This document shows positions 12,852-30,247 of a DNA stretch of 64,000 nt, one piece after another (position 1 is the stretch's first letter; each line of letters opens with the position of its first letter). The stretch spans positions 1 through 64,000 of the forward strand of contig NZ_MRWD01000026.1 in NCBI RefSeq assembly GCF_002093625.1. The letters are read 5' to 3'. A program made the translations under genes and the position numbers. This DNA comes from Rouxiella silvae (lineage in GTDB: Bacteria; Pseudomonadota; Gammaproteobacteria; Enterobacterales; Enterobacteriaceae). The notes beneath the pieces are model-generated. The model ran no database searches. It was not told where the DNA came from and saw only the letters and a program-made list of their open reading frames with translations.

Positions 12852-15563
12852 TTACTGCCAACCGTAGCGGCGGAAAAAAATGCCTTTAACCGCCTGAGTT
12901 AACACCATATAGCCCGCCAAAATCGCCACCAGCCACGGGAAGTATCCCAGCGGTAATGCCTGAAGCTGAAGGAATCCGGCGGCGGGAGTAAAGATCAGGC
13001 CAATGCCCACCACGACCACCAGCAACGTCATCATACACAGCGGCCAAGACGCGCGACTCTGAATAAAGGGGACTTTCCGGGTGCGGATCATATGCACAAT
13101 CAACGTTTGGGACAGCAGCCCTTCTATAAACCAGCCGGTCTGGAATAAGGTGTGCATTTCTGGCGTATTAGCCTTGAATACCCACCACATTAGCGCGAAG
13201 GTCAGCATATCAAACACCGAGCTTATCGGACCAAAGAACACCATAAAACGACCGATATCTCCCGCGTTCCAGCGCTGTGGCTTCGCCAACTGTTCTTCGT
13301 CAACGTTATCAAAGGGGATCGCGACCTGAGAGACATCATAAATCAGGTTCTGCACCAGCAGGTGCAGCGGCAGCATCGGCAGAAACGGCAGAAAGGCACT
13401 GGCTACCAATACGCTGAAAACGTTACCGAAGTTGGAGCTGGCGGTCATTTTGATATATTTGAGCATGTTGGCAAAGGTGCGACGGCCCTCGGTAACGCCC
13501 TGCTCCAGCACCATCAGGCTTTTTTCCAGCAGGATAATATCCGCCGCTTCTTTGGCGATATCTACCGCAGAATCTACGGAAATACCAATATCAGCCGCCC
13601 GCAGTGCCGGTGCATCATTGATGCCGTCGCCCATAAAACCAACGACGTGGCCCTGTTCACGCAGCACGCGGACAATGCGTTCTTTATGTAACGGCGCAAG
13701 TTTAGCGAATACGCGGGTTGTTTTAGCCACCTCTGCCAGTTCGGCATCGCTAAGTCGTTCTATTTCACTGCCGATGACAATTTTATCCACAGACAGACCG
13801 ACGTCCAGACAGACTTTTCTCGCCACCAGTGGATTGTCACCGGTGAGGATTTTCACCGTTACGCCTTTATTTTGCAGCGCTTTTAAAGCCGGTGCGGTGC
13901 TCTCTTTTGGCGGATCGAGGAAAGCAATATATCCGGCGAGGATCAGGCTGGACTCATCGGCCACCGCATAGTCTCCTGCACGCGACGGCATAACTTTATG
14001 GGCAACGGCGACGACTCTCAATCCCTGCTGATTAAGATCATCGGTAATACGACGGATGCGCTTTAACAGTTGATCCGTCAGCGGTACGGTTTCATCATTG
14101 AGCTGCACAAGGGTACAAATCGACAGAATTTCTTCCAGCGCGCCCTTACAGATCAGCCGATGATGATCGGCGGCTTCTGACACCACCACCGACATACGAC
14201 GTCGATCGAAATCAAACGGGATTTCATCGACTTTACTGTAATGATCAACACCCTGCTCCATCTTCACGGCTTCCGCACCTGCAAGCACCGCCACGTCGAG
14301 CAGATTTTTCAGTCCGGTCTGATAATGGCTGTTGAGCCAGGCAAGATGCAGCACGTTGTTGCACGGTGAACCCAGTACATCGGTATGACGCTCAAGAATG
14401 ATTTTATCCTGCGTCAACGTCCCGGTTTTATCGGTGCACAGAATGTCCATCGCGCCAAAGTTTTGAATCGCATCCAGATGTTTAACAATTACTTTCTGAC
14501 GTGAGAGCTTAACCGCGCCTTTTGCCAAAGTAGAAGTCACAATCATCGGCAGCATTTCAGGCGTGAGGCCTACGGCAACAGATAGTGAGAACAACGCCGC
14601 TTCCCACCAGTCACCCTTGGTATAGCCATTAATCAGCAACACCACCGGCGTCATCACCATCATAAACCGAATCAGTAACCAGCTCACTTTGCTGATCCCG
14701 CGCTGGAAGGCGTTCGGCTGCTCATCCTGTTTAATCACCCGTTCGGCGAGCTGGCCAAACCAGGTCTGTGCGCCCGTGGAAATCACCATCGCCATCGCGG
14801 TACCACTGATAACGTTGGTGCCCATAAAGCACAGCGTGTCCTGCTCCAGCGGGTCACAGTCAACCGGCAGACGGCTGTGGGCCAATTTTTCGACCGGCAA
14901 TGACTCACCGGTCAGCGCCGCTTGGCTGATAAACAGGTCTTTTGCGGAAAGAATACGCAGGTCTGCTGGGATCATATCCCCCGCCGAGAGTTTGACCAGG
15001 TCACCCGGCACCAACTGATTGATAGGTAATTCTAGCGTTTCACTGCGCCCAGTGTGGCTATCGCAGCGCAAAACTGTGGCGGTATTACTGACCATGGCTT
15101 TCAAGGCGTCGGCAGCTCTGTTCGAGCGGGCTTCCTGCACGAAGCGCATAAGGGTAGAAATAACCACCATGCTGCCAATCACCAGCGTAGCTTTCATGTC
15201 TTCCGTGGCGTAGGACACCGCAGCCAGCAGGGTTAGAAGCAGGTTGAAAGGGTTACGATAGCAAATCCACAGATGCTGCCACCAGGGCGCAGGCTGCTGA
15301 TCGTCGGTTTGATTGGCCCCGACACGTTCGCGTATTGCGTCGGCTTCAGCATGGGTTAGCCCTTCAAAATGGCTATCGAATTGGGTATATAATTGTTCAA
15401 CATCGGCACGGGCACAGGCCTGTGAGTGCTGAACAATAGACGTTGGTACATCATGACCTGCGGTGGGTTGCGCATTTTCCAGCATAGGAGAACGGCGGAT
15501 CAGGCGGCGTGGCAAATTACGGCTGAACATAGTGAACAGACGGTGGGTGAAAGCTTTGAACAT
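12852..15563 (-). CDS. mgtA: Mg2+-importing P-type ATPase MgtA
   Basis: A 903-residue P3-type ATPase that imports Mg2+ across the inner membrane. Visible landmarks are the actuator TGES motif (ALTGESLPVEK), the phosphorylation site DKTGTLTQD, the hinge motif GDGINDAPALR, and C-terminal membrane helices ending in YFPWLVAILAGYM. It is close to E. coli MgtA (898 residues) throughout. The ATG at 15563 (MFKAFTHRLF) is chosen because it matches the E. coli N terminus and has AAAGG upstream; an earlier ATG at 15587 is less likely. A structured leader with an MgtL-like peptide and a PhoP box lies upstream, implying PhoP-PhoQ and Mg2+-dependent control. Confidence 0.95.
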   Translation of the reverse strand: MFKAFTHRLFTMFSRNLPRRLIRRSPMLENAQPTAGHDVPTSIVQHSQACARADVEQLYTQFDSHFEGLTHAEADAIRERVGANQTDDQQPAPWWQHLWICYRNPFNLLLTLLAAVSYATEDMKATLVIGSMVVISTLMRFVQEARSNRAADALKAMVSNTATVLRCDSHTGRSETLELPINQLVPGDLVKLSAGDMIPADLRILSAKDLFISQAALTGESLPVEKLAHSRLPVDCDPLEQDTLCFMGTNVISGTAMAMVISTGAQTWFGQLAERVIKQDEQPNAFQRGISKVSWLLIRFMMVMTPVVLLINGYTKGDWWEAALFSLSVAVGLTPEMLPMIVTSTLAKGAVKLSRQKVIVKHLDAIQNFGAMDILCTDKTGTLTQDKIILERHTDVLGSPCNNVLHLAWLNSHYQTGLKNLLDVAVLAGAEAVKMEQGVDHYSKVDEIPFDFDRRRMSVVVSEAADHHRLICKGALEEILSICTLVQLNDETVPLTDQLLKRIRRITDDLNQQGLRVVAVAHKVMPSRAGDYAVADESSLILAGYIAFLDPPKESTAPALKALQNKGVTVKILTGDNPLVARKVCLDVGLSVDKIVIGSEIERLSDAELAEVAKTTRVFAKLAPLHKERIVRVLREQGHVVGFMGDGINDAPALRAADIGISVDSAVDIAKEAADIILLEKSLMVLEQGVTEGRRTFANMLKYIKMTASSNFGNVFSVLVASAFLPFLPMLPLHLLVQNLIYDVSQVAIPFDNVDEEQLAKPQRWNAGDIGRFMVFFGPISSVFDMLTFALMWWVFKANTPEMHTLFQTGWFIEGLLSQTLIVHMIRTRKVPFIQSRASWPLCMMTLLVVVVGIGLIFTPAAGFLQLQALPLGYFPWLVAILAGYMVLTQAVKGIFFRRYGWQ

Positions 15564-15684
15564 AACTCGTACCTTTATTGCGCCCACGACCCGACATTCC
15601 CTTGGGTTTTAAAGCAATATCCGCAGTCATTAAAACGCAGACACCGCATCAAACCACGGGCTATTACGTCGTGGGGATGGCAAA

Positions 15685-15830
15685 GGATTAAAAGCATTGC
15701 GAGCAAGAGTGCAGGCAGATGCTTACCAAATTTTATCCGGTAAGTAGCTGCAAAAAGGCGGGTGCTTACCGGATCAAGACGAACTCACTGGGTTGGGGTC
15801 GGGATCCATAAAAATTTTCTCGGTAAGTTA
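15685..15830 (-). promoter_or_regulatory. mgtA leader with mutually exclusive stems
   Basis: Read 5'-3' on the minus strand, four short segments alternate: CTTACCG (15827-15821), CCGGTAAG (15772-15765), CTTACCGG (15744-15737) and GGTAAG (15727-15722). Segment 1 can pair with 2, 2 with 3 (extended to a perfect 10 bp, ATCCGGTAAG/CTTACCGGAT) and 3 with 4. A further AAGCAT/ATGCTT hairpin (15692-15724) competes with segment 4 and runs into TTTT. The MgtL-like ORF lies between segments 1 and 2, and its stop overlaps the first bases of the 2-3 stem. This is the logic of a translation-coupled, Mg2+-sensitive leader as known for Salmonella and E. coli mgtA. Confidence 0.75.
15774..15809 (-). CDS. mgtL: MgtL-like leader peptide
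   Basis: An 11-residue ORF encoding MDPDPNPVSSS in the mgtA leader. E. coli MgtL begins MEPDPTP, so the alternating acidic/Pro start is conserved while the basic tail is not. In E. coli and Salmonella, translation of the Asp/Glu-Pro run destabilises ribosomes at low Mg2+ and changes leader folding and transcription termination. Here the TGA stop overlaps the first arm of a 10-bp leader hairpin, which fits that mechanism. The ribosome-binding site (CCGAGAAAA) is weak. The function is inferred by analogy. Confidence 0.72.
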   Translation of the reverse strand: MDPDPNPVSSS

Positions 15831-16012
15831 AAAACATTTTCGCTGAGAGAAGGGACATGTGTAAAACTCTGACCCAGGTTGCATTCGTCTCAGGAATTCA
15901 TGCCTAAAGAAGTAAAATCCGTTAGGGTATGACGGTGCGTCATTGTCGCGCATACTGCGCCACTTGAACTGATCTCGATCAATTCGGTGCGCGAAATATA
16001 CTCCTCTTAACT

Positions 16013-16029
16013 TGAACCGTTGATAAACC
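16013..16029 (-). promoter_or_regulatory. PhoP box for mgtA
   Basis: On the minus strand, GGTTTA-TCAAC-GGTTCA matches the PhoP direct repeat (G/T)GTTTA-N5-(G/T)GTTTA at 11 of 12 positions. A -10-like TATATT follows 12 bases later (16000-15995), placing the mgtA start near 15988 and giving a leader of about 425 bases. The box directly abuts the treR start codon on the other strand. Confidence 0.65.
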
Positions 16030-16989
16030 ATGCAAAATCGTCTGACTATTAAAGACATTGCCCGACTGAGCGGTGTGGGGAAATCTACCGTTTCCAGAGT
16101 GCTGAACAATGAAGGCCACGTCAGTCCACAAACGCGTGAACGCGTGCTGGCGGTTATCGAGCAACAGTCATTTCTGCCCTCAAAATCCGCCAGAGCGATG
16201 CGCGGTCAAAGCGACAAAGTGGTTGCCATTATCGTCTCCCGACTTGATTCGCCCTCTGAAAATCAGGCGGTACGCACTATGCTGCCGCTGCTGTATGAAC
16301 AGGGCTACGATCCCATCGTGATGGAAAGCAAGTTCAGCGTGCAGCGCGTACAGGAGCATCTGCAAGTTTTACAACAGCGTGCGGCCGATGGCGTCATTCT
16401 GTTTGGCTTCACCGGCCTCGACGAGCAAATCCTAGAAGGCTGGCAGGAAAAAACCGTGATCGTGGCGCGTCAGTATCAGGGATTTTCCAGCGTGTGCTAC
16501 GACGACAGCGGTGCCGTTAATCTGCTGTTGAATCAGCTTTATCAGCAAGGGCATCGCCACATCAGCTACATGGGAACCCACGAGGCCGACACGACGACGG
16601 GTGCGCTGCGTACTCAGGCTTATCAGGCATTTTGTGAGCATAAACAGCTTGAACCGGTGCTGATATTGGGCGAGCTCACCTATCACAGCGGATATGAGCT
16701 GGCAGAGGGAATTTTACGCCCCGACACCACGGCGGTAATTTGTGCCTCCGACAGCATCGCACTTGGGGTAGCCAAGTACCTGCAACAGCAGCATAAAAGC
16801 GACATTACCCTGTGCGGGATCGGTAATAACCTATTGATGCGCTTCCTGTTTCCTCAGGCACTGACGGTGGAATTAGGCTATGGGCGCGCAGGCACTGAAG
16901 CCGTACGCCTGCTGATGTCGCAGCTGCACTCCGCCCCGTCTGGACAACATATTATTGTGCCCTGCCAGCTGGCCGATCCCCTGCCTTAG
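16030..16989 (+). CDS. treR: Trehalose operon repressor TreR
   Basis: A 319-residue LacI-family repressor; in E. coli it is induced by trehalose 6-phosphate. The N-terminal helix-turn-helix is nearly identical to E. coli TreR (LTIKDIARLSGVGKSTVSRVLNNE), followed by a periplasmic-binding-protein-like sensor domain (SDKVVAIIVSRLDS, VILFGFTG, SVCYDDSGAV). No good Shine-Dalgarno sequence precedes the ATG; the bases there form the mgtA PhoP box instead. It lies 138 bases upstream of treB in the same direction, with a palindromic operator between, and is divergent from mgtA as in E. coli. Confidence 0.95.
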   Translation: MQNRLTIKDIARLSGVGKSTVSRVLNNEGHVSPQTRERVLAVIEQQSFLPSKSARAMRGQSDKVVAIIVSRLDSPSENQAVRTMLPLLYEQGYDPIVMESKFSVQRVQEHLQVLQQRAADGVILFGFTGLDEQILEGWQEKTVIVARQYQGFSSVCYDDSGAVNLLLNQLYQQGHRHISYMGTHEADTTTGALRTQAYQAFCEHKQLEPVLILGELTYHSGYELAEGILRPDTTAVICASDSIALGVAKYLQQQHKSDITLCGIGNNLLMRFLFPQALTVELGYGRAGTEAVRLLMSQLHSAPSGQHIIVPCQLADPLP

Positions 16990-25047: not shown

Positions 25048-25629
25048 ATGTCACTTGTTGCCAGCTTTCAGCATCCAGTTGCCGATGCGCAGTACAGTTT
25101 TCGCCGTATTCTCAAAGCGTTAAGCGAGCCAGGCTCGGTGGTTACCCTGCCTTCCATGCCCGGTTTCGGCAAGCTCGGTTCCGCCAGCGCTTGCGTGCTG
25201 CTGACGCTGATTGATAAAGACACGCCACTGTGGATAAGTCCGCAACTCGACGATGACGTTTTACGTCAAAATCTGCGTTTTCACACCGGTGCGCTACTGA
25301 CCGAAGATCCGAGCAGCGTCAGTTTTGCTCTGGCCCAAGGCTCACTCGATAGCGCCACCTTGCTGGCATTTCCATGCGGCGACGAGATGTCTCCCGAGTT
25401 GGCAACCAGCGTGATTGTGCAGCTTGAGTCTCTGGAAGGCGGAACGCCGCTGCGCCTGCTGGGTCCGGGTATTGAGCACCAGCGGGTAATCTGCCCGCAA
25501 TTGCCGCAGGCCGTCACGGAGTATTTGTTGAATCGTCCGCACCGTTTCCCACTGGGGCTGGATTTCATGTTTACCTGCGGTGAGCAGTTGCTTGCCTTAC
25601 CGCGCACTACCCGCGTGGAGGCCTGCTAA
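25048..25629 (+). CDS. phnH: C-P lyase subunit PhnH
   Basis: A 193-residue subunit of the C-P lyase core complex (E. coli length 194). Recognisable stretches are FQHPVADAQYSFRRILKALS at the N terminus and RFPLGLDFMFTCGEQLLALPRTTRVEAC at the C terminus. In the solved E. coli complex PhnH is a peripheral subunit bound to PhnJ. Its last base is shared with the phnI ATG (TAATG). Confidence 0.95.
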   Translation: MSLVASFQHPVADAQYSFRRILKALSEPGSVVTLPSMPGFGKLGSASACVLLTLIDKDTPLWISPQLDDDVLRQNLRFHTGALLTEDPSSVSFALAQGSLDSATLLAFPCGDEMSPELATSVIVQLESLEGGTPLRLLGPGIEHQRVICPQLPQAVTEYLLNRPHRFPLGLDFMFTCGEQLLALPRTTRVEAC

Positions 25630-26723
25630 TGTACGTTGCCGTTAAAGGGGGCGAGAAGGCCATTGAGGCCGCCCATGAACTGCTGGCGCATCAGCGTCGC
25701 GGAGATAGCCAGGTTGTTGAGCTCAACGCCGAACAAATTGAGCAGCAGCTTGGCCTCGCGGTCGACCGCGTGATGAGCGAAGGTGGAATTTACGACCCAC
25801 AGCTGGCCGCACTGGCGATAAAACAGTCGTCCGGTGACCTGGTTGAGGCCATTTTTCTGCTGCGCGCGTACCGCACCACGCTGCCGCGTCTCGCCGTCAG
25901 CCAGCCGCTGAACACCGCCAATATGCGTCTCGAGCGCCGTGTTTCGGCAATTTATAAAGATCTTCCCGGCGGCCAGGTGTTAGGCCCGACCTATGATTAT
26001 ACCCATCGCCTGCTGGACTTTGCTCTGCTGGCCGAAGGGCTGGATCCCATCGCGCCAAAAGCCGATGAAACTCTGCCCGAATCCTGCAGCCACGTGTTTG
26101 ACCTGCTGACCCATCAGCAGCTCGCGGTGCGTGAAGACGACGACGGCAGCGAGCCGGACGACATCACCCGCACTCCGCCGGTTTATCCCGCCTCACGCGC
26201 CGCACGATTGCAGCAGCTGGTGCGCGGAGACGAAGGCTTTTTGCTGTCGTTGAGCTACTCCACTCAACGCGGCTATGGCCGCACCCACCCGTTTGCCGGT
26301 GAAATTCGCACCGGTTGGGTGACGGTAGAAATCGTCCCGGAAGAGCTGGGCTTTGCCATTGATATTGGCGAAATTCTGCTGACCGAGTGCGAGATGGTTA
26401 ACGGTTTTATTACGCCAGAAGACCGGCCACCGCATTTCACCCGCGGCTACGGTTTAGTGTTTGGTCGCGCAGAACGCAAGGCAATGTCGATGTCACTGAT
26501 TGACCGCGCGCTGCAAACCACTGAACACAATGAGCAGGTTCGCAGTCCGGCGCAAGACGATGAGTTTGTGCTGTCGCACGCCGATAACGTTGAAGCCGCT
26601 GGCTTTGTGTCACACCTTAAACTTCCTCACTACGTCGATTTCCAGGCCGAGCTGGAGCTGTTGCAGCGTTTGCGCAAACAGCGTGACGCCGCCTTGGGCA
26701 AGGACACTTCTAATGAAAAATAA
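25629..26723 (+). CDS. phnI: C-P lyase subunit PhnI
   Basis: A 364-residue C-P lyase subunit, slightly longer than E. coli PhnI (354). With MgATP and PhnG, PhnH and PhnL, it transfers the phosphonate to C1 of ribose, displacing adenine. Conserved stretches are YVAVKGGEKAIEAAHELL at the N terminus, LPRLAVSQPLNTANMRLERR, and YGRTHPFAGEIRTGWVTVEI. It overlaps phnJ by 11 bases, consistent with coupled translation of stoichiometric subunits. Confidence 0.95.
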   Translation: MYVAVKGGEKAIEAAHELLAHQRRGDSQVVELNAEQIEQQLGLAVDRVMSEGGIYDPQLAALAIKQSSGDLVEAIFLLRAYRTTLPRLAVSQPLNTANMRLERRVSAIYKDLPGGQVLGPTYDYTHRLLDFALLAEGLDPIAPKADETLPESCSHVFDLLTHQQLAVREDDDGSEPDDITRTPPVYPASRAARLQQLVRGDEGFLLSLSYSTQRGYGRTHPFAGEIRTGWVTVEIVPEELGFAIDIGEILLTECEMVNGFITPEDRPPHFTRGYGLVFGRAERKAMSMSLIDRALQTTEHNEQVRSPAQDDEFVLSHADNVEAAGFVSHLKLPHYVDFQAELELLQRLRKQRDAALGKDTSNEK

Positions 26724-27594
26724 TAAAGCGGCTGCTACGGCCACCGGCTACAACCAGGGCTATCTCGACGAGCAAACCAAGCGCATGATCCGCCGTGCCA
26801 TTCTCAAAGCCGTGGCGATCCCGGGTTATCAGGTACCGTTTGCCGGCCGTGAAATGCCGATGCCTTACGGCTGGGGCACCGGTGGTATTCAGATTACTGC
26901 CAGCGTTATCGGCCAAGAAGACGTGCTGAAAGTGATTGACCAAGGTGCCGATGACACCACCAACGCCGTGTCGATCCGCCGCTTTTTTAAAAACGTTGCC
27001 GGTGTAGAAACGACCGAGAAAACCTGCGATGCGACGCTGATTCAGACCCGCCACCGTATTCCTGAAACGCCGCTGGTGGAAGATCAGATCCTCATATTTC
27101 AGGTGCCGATCCCAGAACCGCTGCGCTTTATTGAACCGCGTGAAACTGAAACGCGAAAAATGCACGCGCTGGAGGAGTACGGCGTCATGCAAGTGAAACT
27201 GTACGAAGACATCGCGCGCTTCGGCCACATCGCCACCACCTATGCTTATCCGGTGAAAGTGAACGATCGCTACGTGATGGATCCCTCGCCCATCCCAAAA
27301 TTTGATAACCCAAAGATGCACATGATGCCCGCGCTACAGCTGTTTGGTGCCGGGCGTGAAAAACGCATTTATGCGCTGCCGCCTTTTACCAAAGTTGAAA
27401 GCTTAGACTTTGAGGATCACCCGTTTACGGTGCAGAAATGGGATCAGCCCTGTGCCATCTGCGGATCGCACGACAGCTATCTCGACGAAGTGGTGCTCGA
27501 CGATCTGGGCAACCGAATGTTTGTCTGCTCCGACACCGACTACTGCGCGCAGCAGCTTGAAACCGCATCTTCTCAAGAGGCCAACACTAAATGA
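26713..27594 (+). CDS. phnJ: C-P lyase PhnJ (radical SAM)
   Basis: A 293-residue subunit that cleaves the C-P bond by radical chemistry (E. coli length 281). The iron-sulfur cysteines occupy the C-terminal region: CAICGSHDSY, then VCSDTDYC, the atypical spacing characteristic of PhnJ. The N-terminal half holds GWGTGGIQITASVIG and PVKVNDRYVMDPSPIPKFDNP. ATG 26713 (MKNNKAAATATGYNQGYLD) is chosen because the upstream in-frame extension from 26500 reads through phnI in another frame. It overlaps phnI by 11 bases and phnK by 4. Confidence 0.95.
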   Translation: MKNNKAAATATGYNQGYLDEQTKRMIRRAILKAVAIPGYQVPFAGREMPMPYGWGTGGIQITASVIGQEDVLKVIDQGADDTTNAVSIRRFFKNVAGVETTEKTCDATLIQTRHRIPETPLVEDQILIFQVPIPEPLRFIEPRETETRKMHALEEYGVMQVKLYEDIARFGHIATTYAYPVKVNDRYVMDPSPIPKFDNPKMHMMPALQLFGAGREKRIYALPPFTKVESLDFEDHPFTVQKWDQPCAICGSHDSYLDEVVLDDLGNRMFVCSDTDYCAQQLETASSQEANTK

Positions 27595-28379
27595 ATCCGG
27601 TCAACTCTTCCGCCATGCCGCTGCTTTGTGTCGAGAATCTGACGCACCTTTACGCGCCGGGCAAAGGCTTTAGCGATGTGTCATTCCAGCTCTATCCTGG
27701 CGAAGTGCTGGGCATTGTCGGCGAATCTGGCTCAGGTAAAACCACGCTGTTGCAGTCCATTTCAGCGCGTCTTGCGCCGCAGCAGGGTCAGGTAATTTAC
27801 AACAACGGCGTACAGCCAGCGCAGTCACTTTATCAGATGCCTGAAAGCGACCGTCGCCGCCTGTTGCGCACCGACTGGGGCGTGGTGCATCAACATCCGA
27901 TGGACGGCCTGCGTCGTCAGGTCTCCGCGGGCGGCAACATCGGCGAACGTTTGATGGCGGTTGGCGAGCGAAACTATGCGCGCATTCGCCAGCAGGCCAG
28001 TCAATGGCTTGAAGACGTCGAAATCCCGGTTTCGCGCCTCGATGACTTGCCTACGACTTTCTCCGGCGGTATGCAGCAGCGCCTGCAAATTGCCCGCAAT
28101 CTGGTGACGCATCCACGTTTGGTCTTCATGGATGAGCCAACCGGCGGCCTCGACGTCTCCGTTCAGGCTCGCCTGCTGGACTTGCTGCGCACGCTAGTCG
28201 TTGAAATGCAGCTGGCGGTGGTGATTGTCACCCATGATTTGGGCGTTGCGCGCCTGCTGGCTCACCGTTTACTGGTGATGAAACAGGGTCAGGTGGTGGA
28301 AAGCGGCCTAACCGACCGAGTGCTGGATGACCCGCATCATCCTTATACCCAACTGCTCGTTTCATCCGTTTTGTCCTGA
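27591..28379 (+). CDS. phnK: Phosphonate C-P lyase ATP-binding protein PhnK
   Basis: A 262-residue ABC-type ATPase that docks on the C-P lyase core rather than on a membrane permease. It has the Walker A motif GESGSGKTT (about residue 43), the ABC signature TFSGGMQQRLQ, Walker B LVFMDEPTGG and the switch His in VTHDLG. E. coli PhnK is 252 residues. The extra length is at the N terminus, where an in-frame ATG at 27615 is an alternative. The annotated start overlaps the phnJ stop by 4 bases (ATGA), and phnL follows after 24 bases. Confidence 0.93.
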   Translation: MNPVNSSAMPLLCVENLTHLYAPGKGFSDVSFQLYPGEVLGIVGESGSGKTTLLQSISARLAPQQGQVIYNNGVQPAQSLYQMPESDRRRLLRTDWGVVHQHPMDGLRRQVSAGGNIGERLMAVGERNYARIRQQASQWLEDVEIPVSRLDDLPTTFSGGMQQRLQIARNLVTHPRLVFMDEPTGGLDVSVQARLLDLLRTLVVEMQLAVVIVTHDLGVARLLAHRLLVMKQGQVVESGLTDRVLDDPHHPYTQLLVSSVLS

Positions 28380-28403
28380 GAACCCTTTAAGAGTGATAAA
28401 CCA

Positions 28404-29114
28404 ATGACAACCAGACTCCGGGTCGAAAAACTGAGTAAAACTTTTGTCTTACATAATCAGCAAGGGATCAGGCTGCCGGTGTTTCACAACGCCAGCCTTG
28501 ACGTTAACGCAGGTGAGTGCGTGGTGTTGCACGGCCATTCAGGCAGCGGAAAATCCACCCTGCTGCGCTCGCTATACGGCAACTATCTGCCGGACAGTGG
28601 CCACATTTGGGTTAAACATCAGGAACAGTGGGTCGATATGGTCAGCGCACAGGCGCGTGAAATTCTCGACGTACGCCGCCACAGCGTAGGCTGGGTGAGC
28701 CAGTTTCTGCGTGTTATTCCGCGCATCAGCGCCCTTAATTTAGTGATGCAGCCGTTGGTGGAGTTAGGTATCGACAAACCGCAGGCCGAGCAGCGCGCCA
28801 GCGAACTTTTACAGCACCTGAATGTGCCTGAGCGCCTGTGGCAGCTCGCCCCTTCAACGTTTTCCGGTGGTGAACAGCAGAGGGTAAACATTGCGCGCGG
28901 ATTTATCGTCGATTATCCGGTGCTGTTGCTCGATGAGCCCACCGCCTCGCTGGATGCCACCAATCGCGCGGCAGTCGTCACGCTGATTGAAAAGGCCAAA
29001 GCGCGCGGCGCGGCGGTAGTGGGGATTTTCCACGATGAAGACGTGCGTGAGCGCGTGGCCGACCGGCTGCACGTCATGGCACCAGAATTAGCGAATGCGG
29101 AGAATTTGGCATGA
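28404..29114 (+). CDS. phnL: Phosphonate C-P lyase ATP-binding protein PhnL
   Basis: A 236-residue ABC-type ATPase (E. coli length 226) required in the first steps of C-P lyase action with PhnGHI. The motifs are Walker [10 protein letters not shown] near residue 42, signature [10 protein letters not shown], Walker [11 protein letters not shown] and the switch His in [10 protein letters not shown]. It belongs to the LolD-like cytoplasmic branch with no permease partner here. The end overlaps phnM by 4 bases. Confidence 0.94.
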
Positions 29115-30247
29115 TTATCAACAACGTCAATCTGGTGTTGGCGGAAGAAACCGTAAAAGGCTCTATCGAAATCAAGGAAGGGATTATCGCTTCCTTTACT
29201 GATACCACCAGCCAACTGCCGCAGGCGCTTGATGCTGAGGGTGGCTGGTTGATGCCCGGTTTTGTCGAACTGCACACCGATAATCTGGATAAATTTTTTA
29301 CCCCGCGCCCCAAAGTTGACTGGCCAGCCCATTCGGCGATGAGCAGCCACGACGCGCTGATGGTTGCCAGCGGGATAACCACCGTACTCGACGCGGTGGC
29401 CGTTGGCGACGTGCGTGACGGCGGTCATCGGCTCGAGAATCTGCAAAAAATGATCGACGCGGTTATCTACAGTCAGAAGGCCGGACTTAACCGCGCCGAG
29501 CACCGCCTGCACCTGCGCTGCGAGCTTCCGCACTCCTCTACGCTGCCTCTGTTCGAAGAGTTGATGAAAAAACCGGGCGTGTCGTTGGTGTCACTCATGG
29601 ACCACTCACCGGGCCAGCGTCAATTCGCCACTCCGCAGAAGTATCGCGAATATTATCAGGGCAAATACCAGCTTAACGATCAGCAGATGGAGGAGTTTCA
29701 GGCTACGCAAATCGCTAACTCGCTGCGCTGGGCGCAGCCTAACCGCAGGGCGATTGCCGCACACTGCCGTGAGTTGGGCATCGCACTGGCCAGCCACGAC
29801 GATGCCACTGCGGCGCACGTCAGCGAGTCGAAAGCACTGGGCAGCGTCATTGCCGAGTTCCCAACCACTGAAGAGGCGGCCCGTGCTTCGCACGCAGAAG
29901 GTCTGCAAGTGTTGATGGGTGCGCCCAATATTGTGCGCGGCGGCTCGCATTCCGGCAACGTGGCGGCGAAACATCTGGCCTCGGTGGGACTGCTTGATAT
30001 TCTTTCTTCCGACTACTATCCCGCCAGCCTGATGGACGCCGTGTTCCGCATTGCGCTGGATGAAGGCAACGCCTTCAGCCTGTCACAGGCGGTGGCGCTG
30101 GTGACGCGCAATCCGGCGCGCGCGTTGGGATTAGAAGACCGGGGAGTGATTGCCGAAGGCAGACGCGCAGACATGGTATTGGCGCGGGCGCACGAGAGTC
30201 ATCACTATGTGCAAAACGTCTGGCGTCAGGGAATACAGGTATTCTGA
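29111..30247 (+). CDS. phnM: RPnTP hydrolase PhnM
   Basis: A 378-residue amidohydrolase, identical in length to E. coli PhnM, that removes pyrophosphate from alpha-D-ribose 1-methylphosphonate 5-triphosphate. Metal-site motifs are [12 protein letters not shown] near residue 53, [34 protein letters not shown] and [12 protein letters not shown]. It overlaps phnL by 4 bases and phnN by one base. It supplies the 5-monophosphate substrate for PhnJ. Confidence 0.96.

Follow-up and report, generated by a model that had tools for sequence, protein, structure and literature searches.

Does the segment upstream of mgtA in Rouxiella silvae belong to the mgtL-type magnesium leaders, given a reading frame of eleven codons, and which parts of the peptide and of the RNA would then do the sensing? 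How MgtL responds to Mg2+ is disputed, the proposals being acid-Pro destabilization, a dependence on Pro-tRNA and EF-P, a dependence on m1G37 codons, or direct sensing by the RNA. We analyzed this segment in the window, i.e., the whole 64,000-nt stretch of DNA (contig NZ_MRWD01000026.1, positions 1 to 64,000), together with the mgtA leaders of related bacteria. The results indicate that 15712-15830 is an mgtL-type Mg2+ leader of mgtA, a divergent relative of the E. coli and Salmonella switch, and we regard this assignment, made by sequence comparison, as well supported.

A four-armed leader upstream of mgtA

The leader lies directly 5' of an mgtA orthologue (Table 1), for which we took the ATG as the start in place of the GTG at 15587 given in the list of open reading frames. 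The encoded MgtA is 89-98% identical to that of five other genomes of the genus, 90% identical to that of Rouxiella badensis, and 71-73% identical to Enterobacteriaceae proteins among the best 80 of 572 loci, a selection in which close relatives are over-represented. The divergently oriented neighbour at 16030 is presumably a treR-like gene, and a run of reading frames at 25629-30247 resembles a phosphonate-use (phn) cluster. Judged by eye, the hairpin before the mgtA ribosome binding site has a shorter counterpart in R. badensis, and its loop seems enlarged in several Rouxiella genomes while the base pairs are kept. The genome carries a second MgtA-like gene (L088, G000:C49:44551-47133; 56% identical), with a long upstream region that gave no match to the covariance model R1 described below.

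Table 1. Positions of the mgtA leader, its elements and neighbouring features in the window.
Feature	Positions	Strand	Basis or remark
mgtA, P-type Mg2+ ATPase, 903 aa	12852..15563	minus	start ATG 15563 (MFK)
Hairpin before the mgtA ribosome binding site, CCCACGAC 15675-15668 / GTCGTGGG 15590-15583, long loop	15583..15675	minus	by eye
Whole switch matched by covariance model R1	15712..15830	minus	RF01056 low-score match 15709-15827
Arm 4, GGTAAG, 3' strand of stem B	15722..15727	minus	exact helix search
Arm 3, CTTACCGGAT, common to stems C and B	15735..15744	minus	exact helix search
Arm 2, ATCCGGTAAG, common to stems A and C	15765..15774	minus	first base is the A of TGA
mgtL leader reading frame, 11 codons, MDPDPNPVSSS	15774..15809	minus	ATG 15809 to TGA 15776-15774
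Degenerate mgtL Shine-Dalgarno region, CCGAGA (others CCGGAG)	15818..15823	minus	anti-SD duplex energy
Arm 1, CTTACCG, 5' strand of stem A	15821..15827	minus	exact helix search
-10-like TATATT, 12 nt after the PhoP box	15995..16000	minus	spacing
PhoP-box-like direct repeat GGTTTA-N5-GGTTCA	16013..16029	minus	1 mismatch

The first-pass annotation of this DNA had described four alternating segments whose 1-2, 2-3 and 3-4 pairings exclude one another, with an 11-residue MgtL-like reading frame between segments 1 and 2 and its TGA running into a 10-bp 2-3 stem, and each of these points was confirmed. A script recovered exact helices of 7 bp between arms 1 and 2 (stem A), 10 bp between arms 2 and 3 (stem C, ATCCGGTAAG/CTTACCGGAT) and 6 bp between arms 3 and 4 (stem B), as well as a 6-bp helix formed by AAGCAT and ATGCTT. 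The core of arm 2 is CCGGTAAG at 15772-15765 and that of arm 3 is CTTACCGG at 15744-15737; stem B has additional outer pairs, GCAG at 15751-15748 with CTGC at 15718-15715. The four-arm chain is not due to chance: a shared-arm chain of 7/8/6 bp occurred in none of 3000 dinucleotide shuffles and in one of 1704 tiles covering both strands of the window, this one being the locus itself, while a looser 6/6/6 chain appeared in 5 of 3000 shuffles. Stem B contains mismatches in the window and in L083, so that, by the energy model only, stems B (-14.6) and C (-15.9) are nearly balanced there; the corresponding model values in three other Rouxiella leaders (L002, L085 and L087) are -24.8 to -27.1 for B and -21.0 to -22.8 for C. 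A 23-codon frame overlaps the leader, running from an ATG at 15837 to the CGG-TAA in arm 2; by eye, its start codon is absent in R. badensis and in L085.

The window peptide begins MDPDP, of the M-[D/E]-P-[D/E]-P type, and an M[DE]P-x-P reading frame was found 5' of all 106 mgtA orthologues examined, which comprise 99 distinct leaders and seven exact duplicates. In 126 upstream regions, of which 20 belong to mgtB-type genes, we counted 93 forward-strand frames with two acid-Pro pairs in the first nine residues and none on the reverse strand; L087 is one further two-pair case beyond those 93. For frames with at least one such pair, the numbers in these regions were 131 and 25. L013, whose peptide begins MDPAP, is left out of the 105-leader counts given below (arms, covariation, promoter box, Shine-Dalgarno and tail) and is included among the 99 distinct leaders.

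Homologous leaders and covariation of the stems

Model R1 was built from 25 aligned leaders (alignment A2) of Enterobacteriaceae, Buttiauxella, Yersinia and Serratia with stems A and B; an earlier alignment, A1, in which the arm 3 and arm 4 columns were by eye one base out of register between groups, was not used. Since A2 contains no 11-residue leader, that class serves as a held-out test. Against the window, the leader was the sole match (36.7 bits, E 6.7e-8 with a rough calibration), and in the 5.28-Mb genome it was the only significant one. We considered whether the genome contains the switch twice and rejected this, the best other candidate reaching only 14.2 bits (E 2.96). R1 also found 23 of 23 other mgtA leaders tried, of which 18 (15 distinct) are in the 11-residue class and four (L092, L093, L094 and L109) come from training groups; L107, from another family of the order, exemplifies the weakest range at 31.4 bits. 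The model gave no match below E 0.2 in 22 regions upstream of mgtB-type genes (best 12.3 bits, E 0.22), and a leader of the same kind was rejected for these genes.

We also searched 394 genomes of the order, using for both R1 and Rfam RF01056 (Magnesium-II) stricter filters that lose weak matches. Under these filters R1 matched in 21 of the 23 genomes that carry an mgtA of at least 70% identity, the misses being G015, the source of L107, which was found when its leader was scanned alone, and G040, in which the gene is cut at the contig start. A match in G069, from another family (23.9 bits, E 0.0077), lies inside and beside a peptidase-like reading frame and was taken as chance; about four such matches would be expected at E 0.01 in 394 genomes. 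RF01056 scored the window leader at 18.3 bits (E 0.35), below its 40-bit gathering cut-off, with an alignment that spans all 115 positions and has both modelled stems in place. With the filters as above, it exceeded the cut-off in 11 of the 23 mgtA-bearing genomes, about half of those sampled, and gave weaker matches in three; of 20 relatives' leaders scored directly, 10 passed, 3 gave weak matches and 7 had none at E 5.

Covariation analysis of the relatives' leaders, which the first-pass annotation had proposed, showed that stems C and B covary and that the signal of stem A is weaker. On A2, stem C was paired in 94.5% of cases versus 17-51% when slid, its score was 0.152 versus 0.103 in shuffled alignments (0/500), and three of its pairs changed on both sides; further pair types were not above shuffles (331/500). 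Stems A and B together were 91.2% paired on A2, with a score of 0.240 versus 0.156 shuffled (0/500), and were not clearly above shuffles in double-change pairs (22/500) or further pair types (121/500). Taken separately, helix A was 94.5% and helix B 88.7% paired, the counts for stem B being lowered because the arm 4 columns of Yersinia and Serratia are, by eye, not in perfect register.

The flanks of stem B, defined as positions not used for placing it, paired in 75.9% of cells versus 54.7% with partners swapped (0/5000; 54 distinct sets from 105 leaders); each position showed 10-19 double changes and 6-17 broken cells. With fixed arms (40 distinct arm sets from 104 leaders, L107 left out), pairing was 91.9% versus 90.9% swapped for stem A (47/2000), 94.1% versus 92.3% for stem C (0/2000) and 95.0% versus 92.3% for the core of stem B (3/2000), although the sequences are related and both shuffles and swaps therefore overstate significance. 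The alternate arms, on whose conservation in relatives the first-pass reading depended, are retained: 95 of 98 distinct leaders have at least 6/8 pairs in A, at least 6/8 in C and at least 4/5 in the B core, and L007, L015 and L107 fail one or two of these thresholds (98 of the 99 distinct leaders counted). L107, which fails two in the fixed register, clearly differs in the letters of arms 1, 2 and 4, and its A, C and B stretches each still fold into long helices. Homology and the covariation of stems C and B together make the mutually exclusive pairing, 1-2 and 3-4 versus 2-3, appear well supported. Stem A, only 7 bp in the window, is the weakest of the three, and the case for it looks marginal.

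Conservation of the MgtL peptide, its codons and its tail

The peptide, too, is conserved in the relatives. Position 2 is Asp in 71 and Glu in 28 of the 99 distinct leaders, Pro-3 and Pro-5 are invariant (99/99 each), and position 4 is Asp in 87, Glu in 1, Val in 10 and Ala in 1, the Val and Ala cases being all eleven Yersinia leaders (L093 assigned by its genus handle). Pro-7 occurs in 66 and Pro-9 in 39. The window peptide has proline at 3, 5 and 7 only and thus lacks the 3, 5, 7, 9 pattern of Salmonella, which, being complete to Pro-9 in no more than those 39 leaders, is not defining for the wider group. The first-pass annotation had suggested that only the DPDP-P core would matter. The part of this that corresponds to D/E2-P3-x4-P5 fits the comparison; the last proline does not, since among the 16 distinct 11-residue peptides Pro-7 occurs in two, those of the window and its nearest relative. 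Peptide lengths are 17 (42 leaders), 16 (19), 15 (13), 14 (9) and 11 (16), and the start codon is ATG in 89 and GTG in 10. The distinct Yersinia leaders (L012, L013, L015, L019, L022, L023, L024, L027, L040, L049 and L093) use GTG in 10 of 11 cases, replace the second acidic residue by Val or Ala (MDPVP/MDPAP) and, in the eight that were folded, contain a strong hairpin within the reading frame.

Codon 3 is CCC in 74, CCT in 23, CCA in 2 and CCG in none of the 99 distinct leaders, and codon 5 is CCC in 86 and CCG in 13, the latter being the Serratia-type leaders; the leaders are related, and these counts are not independent. Among 617 proline codons in 30 genes of the window, CCG is the commonest (41%) and CCC the rarest (15%). 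This bias favours a codon-level or RNA-level constraint that would act besides the amino acid. It also favours keeping the m1G37 model alive for codons 3 and 5, and less so for codons 7, 8, 15 and 17.

As the first-pass annotation had noted, the window peptide lacks the basic tail of E. coli MgtL, and this is borne out for its class, in which 16 of 16 peptides contain no Lys, Arg or His. The CGG-TAA with which 77 of 99 distinct leaders end is arm 2 itself, and conservation of the terminal Arg, listed in PMC6335274 as a conserved m1G37-dependent codon, can therefore be explained by arm 2. The stretch from codon 6 to arm 2 forms an internal hairpin (MFE of -2 or lower; groups picked or dereplicated, so not all members) in 36/36 Enterobacteriaceae (mean z -1.90), 7/7 Buttiauxella/Cedecea-type (-1.37) and 8/8 Yersinia leaders (-2.33), versus 3/6 Serratia-type (-0.23), 1/6 Rouxiella (+0.63) and 0/7 Rahnella/Ewingella-type leaders (+0.84). 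Length alone does not explain the loss of the hairpin, since most Yersinia leaders, with 23 nt here, exceed the 11-residue class (22 nt) by a single nucleotide. From codon 6 on, 136 of 173 Lys/Arg codons of the longer frames have at least two bases in hairpin pairs or arm 2 (81 in arm 2, 55 in the hairpin; 37 in neither), versus 225 of 730 other codons, with L107 and L013 left out. In the 11-residue class, the hairpin is lost, the stop codon stands just before arm 2 and the basic tail is absent, all together. From this we infer that the basic tail would have no function as peptide.

Promoter, ribosome geometry and possible mechanisms

Two features of the window leader go beyond the first-pass annotation, a PhoP-box-like promoter and the near loss of the mgtL Shine-Dalgarno sequence. 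The PhoP-box-like repeat, scored against a consensus that we take to be the PhoP box, is the only one-mismatch case among six matches in the window, and the number of matches there is not above chance. A box of at least 10/12 is present in 98 of 105 leaders, the window included, versus 0 of 105 on the reverse strand, and in 92 of the 98 the -10 element stands 12 nt after it, ties being resolved in favour of 12. In the window, L083, L084, L085 and L087 the box reaches 11 or 12 of 12. The box and TATATT would place the transcription start near 15988 and mgtL at about +180.

A strong mgtL Shine-Dalgarno sequence, a common feature of the group that we did not count as defining, is absent in the window. 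The anti-SD duplex is -3.0 kcal/mol in 8 of 8 Rouxiella leaders (six genomes, two of them also in a second collection) versus -6.3 to -10.8 in the 97 others, and in other genera arm 1 runs on into this sequence. Efficient translation of mgtL is therefore not assured in Rouxiella. Since completion of mgtL is needed for repression in the known systems, the loss predicts either a start without a Shine-Dalgarno sequence or leaky mgtA expression. All 105 leaders measured place arm 2 at 25-35 nt from the first base of codon 5. Relative to the first base of the stop codon, the start of arm 2 lies 4 nt further on in the 11-residue class and 4 nt back (9 in two leaders) in the others. The leading edge of a ribosome reaches about 15 nt downstream, counted from the first base of its P-site codon. 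From these distances, a ribosome at Pro3 could not reach arm 2, and a terminating ribosome would cover arm 2 in both classes; eleven codons may therefore be near the shortest frame that keeps the logic. In E. coli, the EPDP sequence causes ribosome drop-off, with a toeprint in which Pro3 is in the P site, and expression of an mgtA reporter was undetectable when Glu2 was changed to Gln and Asp4 to Asn (PMC11282234).

Taken as a whole, the leader is likely to be an mgtL-type attenuator in a reduced form, in which pausing or drop-off of the ribosome at acid-Pro residues is the input to the switch; promoter activity, translation, drop-off, the Mg2+ response and the role of Rho we infer from E. coli and Salmonella. 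Transcription would begin about 180 nt 5' of mgtL, at a promoter activated by PhoP. With ample Mg2+, mgtL would be finished and the terminating ribosome would cover arm 2, which in an untranslated leader would pair with arm 1. With arm 2 occupied, arms 3 and 4 would form stem B, and transcription would end early, probably by Rho; PMC11552253 describes Rho-dependent termination as undetected for E. coli mgtA. When Mg2+ is scarce, the ribosome would pause or fall off at residues 2-5, short of arm 2 and still near arm 1, so that arm 2 would be free to form the 10-bp stem C with arm 3, stem B would be excluded and mgtA transcribed. The form found in Rouxiella, Rahnella and Ewingella would be a reduced one, with 11 codons, no hairpin within the frame, no basic tail and a stop codon before arm 2. 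Evidence against acid-Pro drop-off in its strict form comes from Yersinia, in which 11 of 11 distinct leaders lack the acidic residue at position 4.

The reading frame might instead respond to proline supply or tRNA state, with slow decoding of proline (uncharged tRNA-Pro, lack of EF-P, or lack of m1G37 at CC[C/U] codons) flipping the arms, as in the m1G37 model (PMC6335274) and the EF-P model (PMC6460261). We consider this unlikely here but a serious contender, since Pro-3 and Pro-5 are invariant and the codon preferences described above (CCC or CCT at codon 3 in 97 of 99, CCC at codon 5 in 86 of 99) run to CCC, the rarest proline codon in the window, instead of the commonest, CCG. However, most codons of the m1G37 model drop out, since the window frame reads CCA at codon 7 and GTG at codon 8 and is too short to have codons 15 and 17; the terminal CGG-TAA of 77 of 99 leaders is arm 2, codon 5 is CCG in all 13 Serratia-type leaders, and Pro-7 and Pro-9 are variable. 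If the frame were dispensable, the leader could be a purely RNA-based riboswitch in which Mg2+ stabilizes stems A and B over C. The conserved arms, the covariation of C and B and the near loss of the Shine-Dalgarno sequence in six Rouxiella genomes agree with this, as does a report, given in PMC11552253, that Mg2+-dependent folding alone is enough to modulate Rho termination of mgtA, yet MDPDP is kept in those same six genomes and the M[DE]P-x-P frame in 106 of 106 leaders, even in the arm-changed L107, which makes an RNA-only sensor improbable.

The Shine-Dalgarno loss could also mean that the leader is decaying in Rouxiella, with mgtL hardly translated and the stems drifting, and the weaker stem B of the window and L083 relative to L002, L085 and L087 points the same way. 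Against such decay, stem C pairs perfectly over 10 bp, the six genomes have kept the start of the peptide and the box scores 11-12/12 in five leaders; we regard it as very improbable. Finally, termination might be intrinsic instead of by Rho, for example at the AAGCAT/ATGCTT hairpin followed by TTTT, which the first-pass annotation had placed in competition with segment 4. That hairpin and its T-run exist, and terminator-like sites lie between mgtL and mgtA in 29 of 105 leaders versus a mean of 11 (range 7-16) in plain shuffles. However, the window is not among the 29, and a second scan, of 15300-16000, found no G+C-rich hairpin with a T-run. The AAGCAT/ATGCTT hairpin encloses a loop of 21 nt and, of the 105 leaders, just two contain it, those of the window and of L083, whose MgtA is 98% identical. 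The hairpin was rejected as a regulated terminator, and we give intrinsic termination at this locus hardly any credence.

Keeping to the attenuator reading, the leader shares with mgtL/mgtA of E. coli and Salmonella enterica (stem-loops A, B and C) its position before mgtA, an acid-Pro motif at the start of the peptide, a chain of four alternating arms in which the frame separates arms 1 and 2, and a putative PhoP-box promoter. It differs in having 11 instead of 17 codons, no basic tail, a stop codon before instead of inside arm 2, no hairpin within the frame and a weak Shine-Dalgarno sequence, and its mgtL, at about +180 from the predicted start, compares with nt 71-124 of the 264-nt Salmonella leader (PMC6460261). 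The Salmonella mgtCBR leader likewise places a Pro-rich frame, mgtP, and alternative stems before a Mg2+ transporter gene, but PMC3641672 calls mgtP unrelated to the mgtA leader frame and describes consecutive Pro codons 10-12 and a separate ATP-responsive mgtM. The corL/corA leader follows the same logic of A/B versus C with a leader frame; it serves another transporter gene, has fewer acidic and Pro residues and starts with UUG (PMC11552253). PMC9495176 reportedly lists the riboswitch in six Enterobacteriaceae only, and PMC6335274 shows an alignment across 'diverse Gram-negative bacteria'. Among the literature matches listed, which mostly exclude subscription papers, the 11-residue form, the Shine-Dalgarno loss and the link between hairpin and tail are not described. 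The mechanism is already known; the 11-residue variant and the comparative reading are what is added here.

Comparison of about a hundred relatives suggests a separation of peptide parts that may sense from parts that may just serve RNA folding. In a tentative extension, which we hold to be nearly an even call, MgtL would carry information only in residues 2-5 and the rest of the frame would be RNA structure. The tail would then derive mostly from the hairpin and arm 2, and the sensor of Rouxiella, Rahnella and Ewingella would be pared to 11 codons. Rouxiella mgtL would be started without a Shine-Dalgarno sequence, so that arm 1 would serve the switch alone and no longer ribosome binding as well, and natural variants would separate the published models of Mg2+ sensing: Yersinia without the acidic residue 4, Serratia with CCG at codon 5 and Rouxiella without the Shine-Dalgarno sequence. 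Because leader-peptide conservation can be imposed by RNA stems, micro-peptides should be read with caution. Since this leader and those of its relatives are natural deletion and substitution variants in which some requirements persist and others are lost, the dispute over sensing is reducible to a small set of reporter tests.

Several minor observations concern the surroundings of mgtL. At 15917-15929 on the minus strand, 5' of mgtL, lies a block, TACCCTAACGGAT, that 17 of 105 leaders share at 11 or more of 13 positions; these are the window and L083 together with Rahnella-type and Yersinia leaders. Among the leaders folded, the block lies in different predicted hairpins. Three genomes from another family of the order (L130, L131 and L132) contain a 17-residue frame, MTEEPKPRPSGSTPPH[SA], preceded by GGAGG, and the matched portion of an mgtB-type gene follows 365-381 nt further on; the fourth match in that family, L133, has no such frame. 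This frame is possibly an independent acid-Pro leader peptide. Of 14 leaders scanned from Yersinia, Rahnella and Rouxiella, four (L022, L027, L092 and L008, with L027 and L092 identical in sequence) have terminator-like hairpins with T-runs 5' of mgtL, a hint of an additional attenuator.
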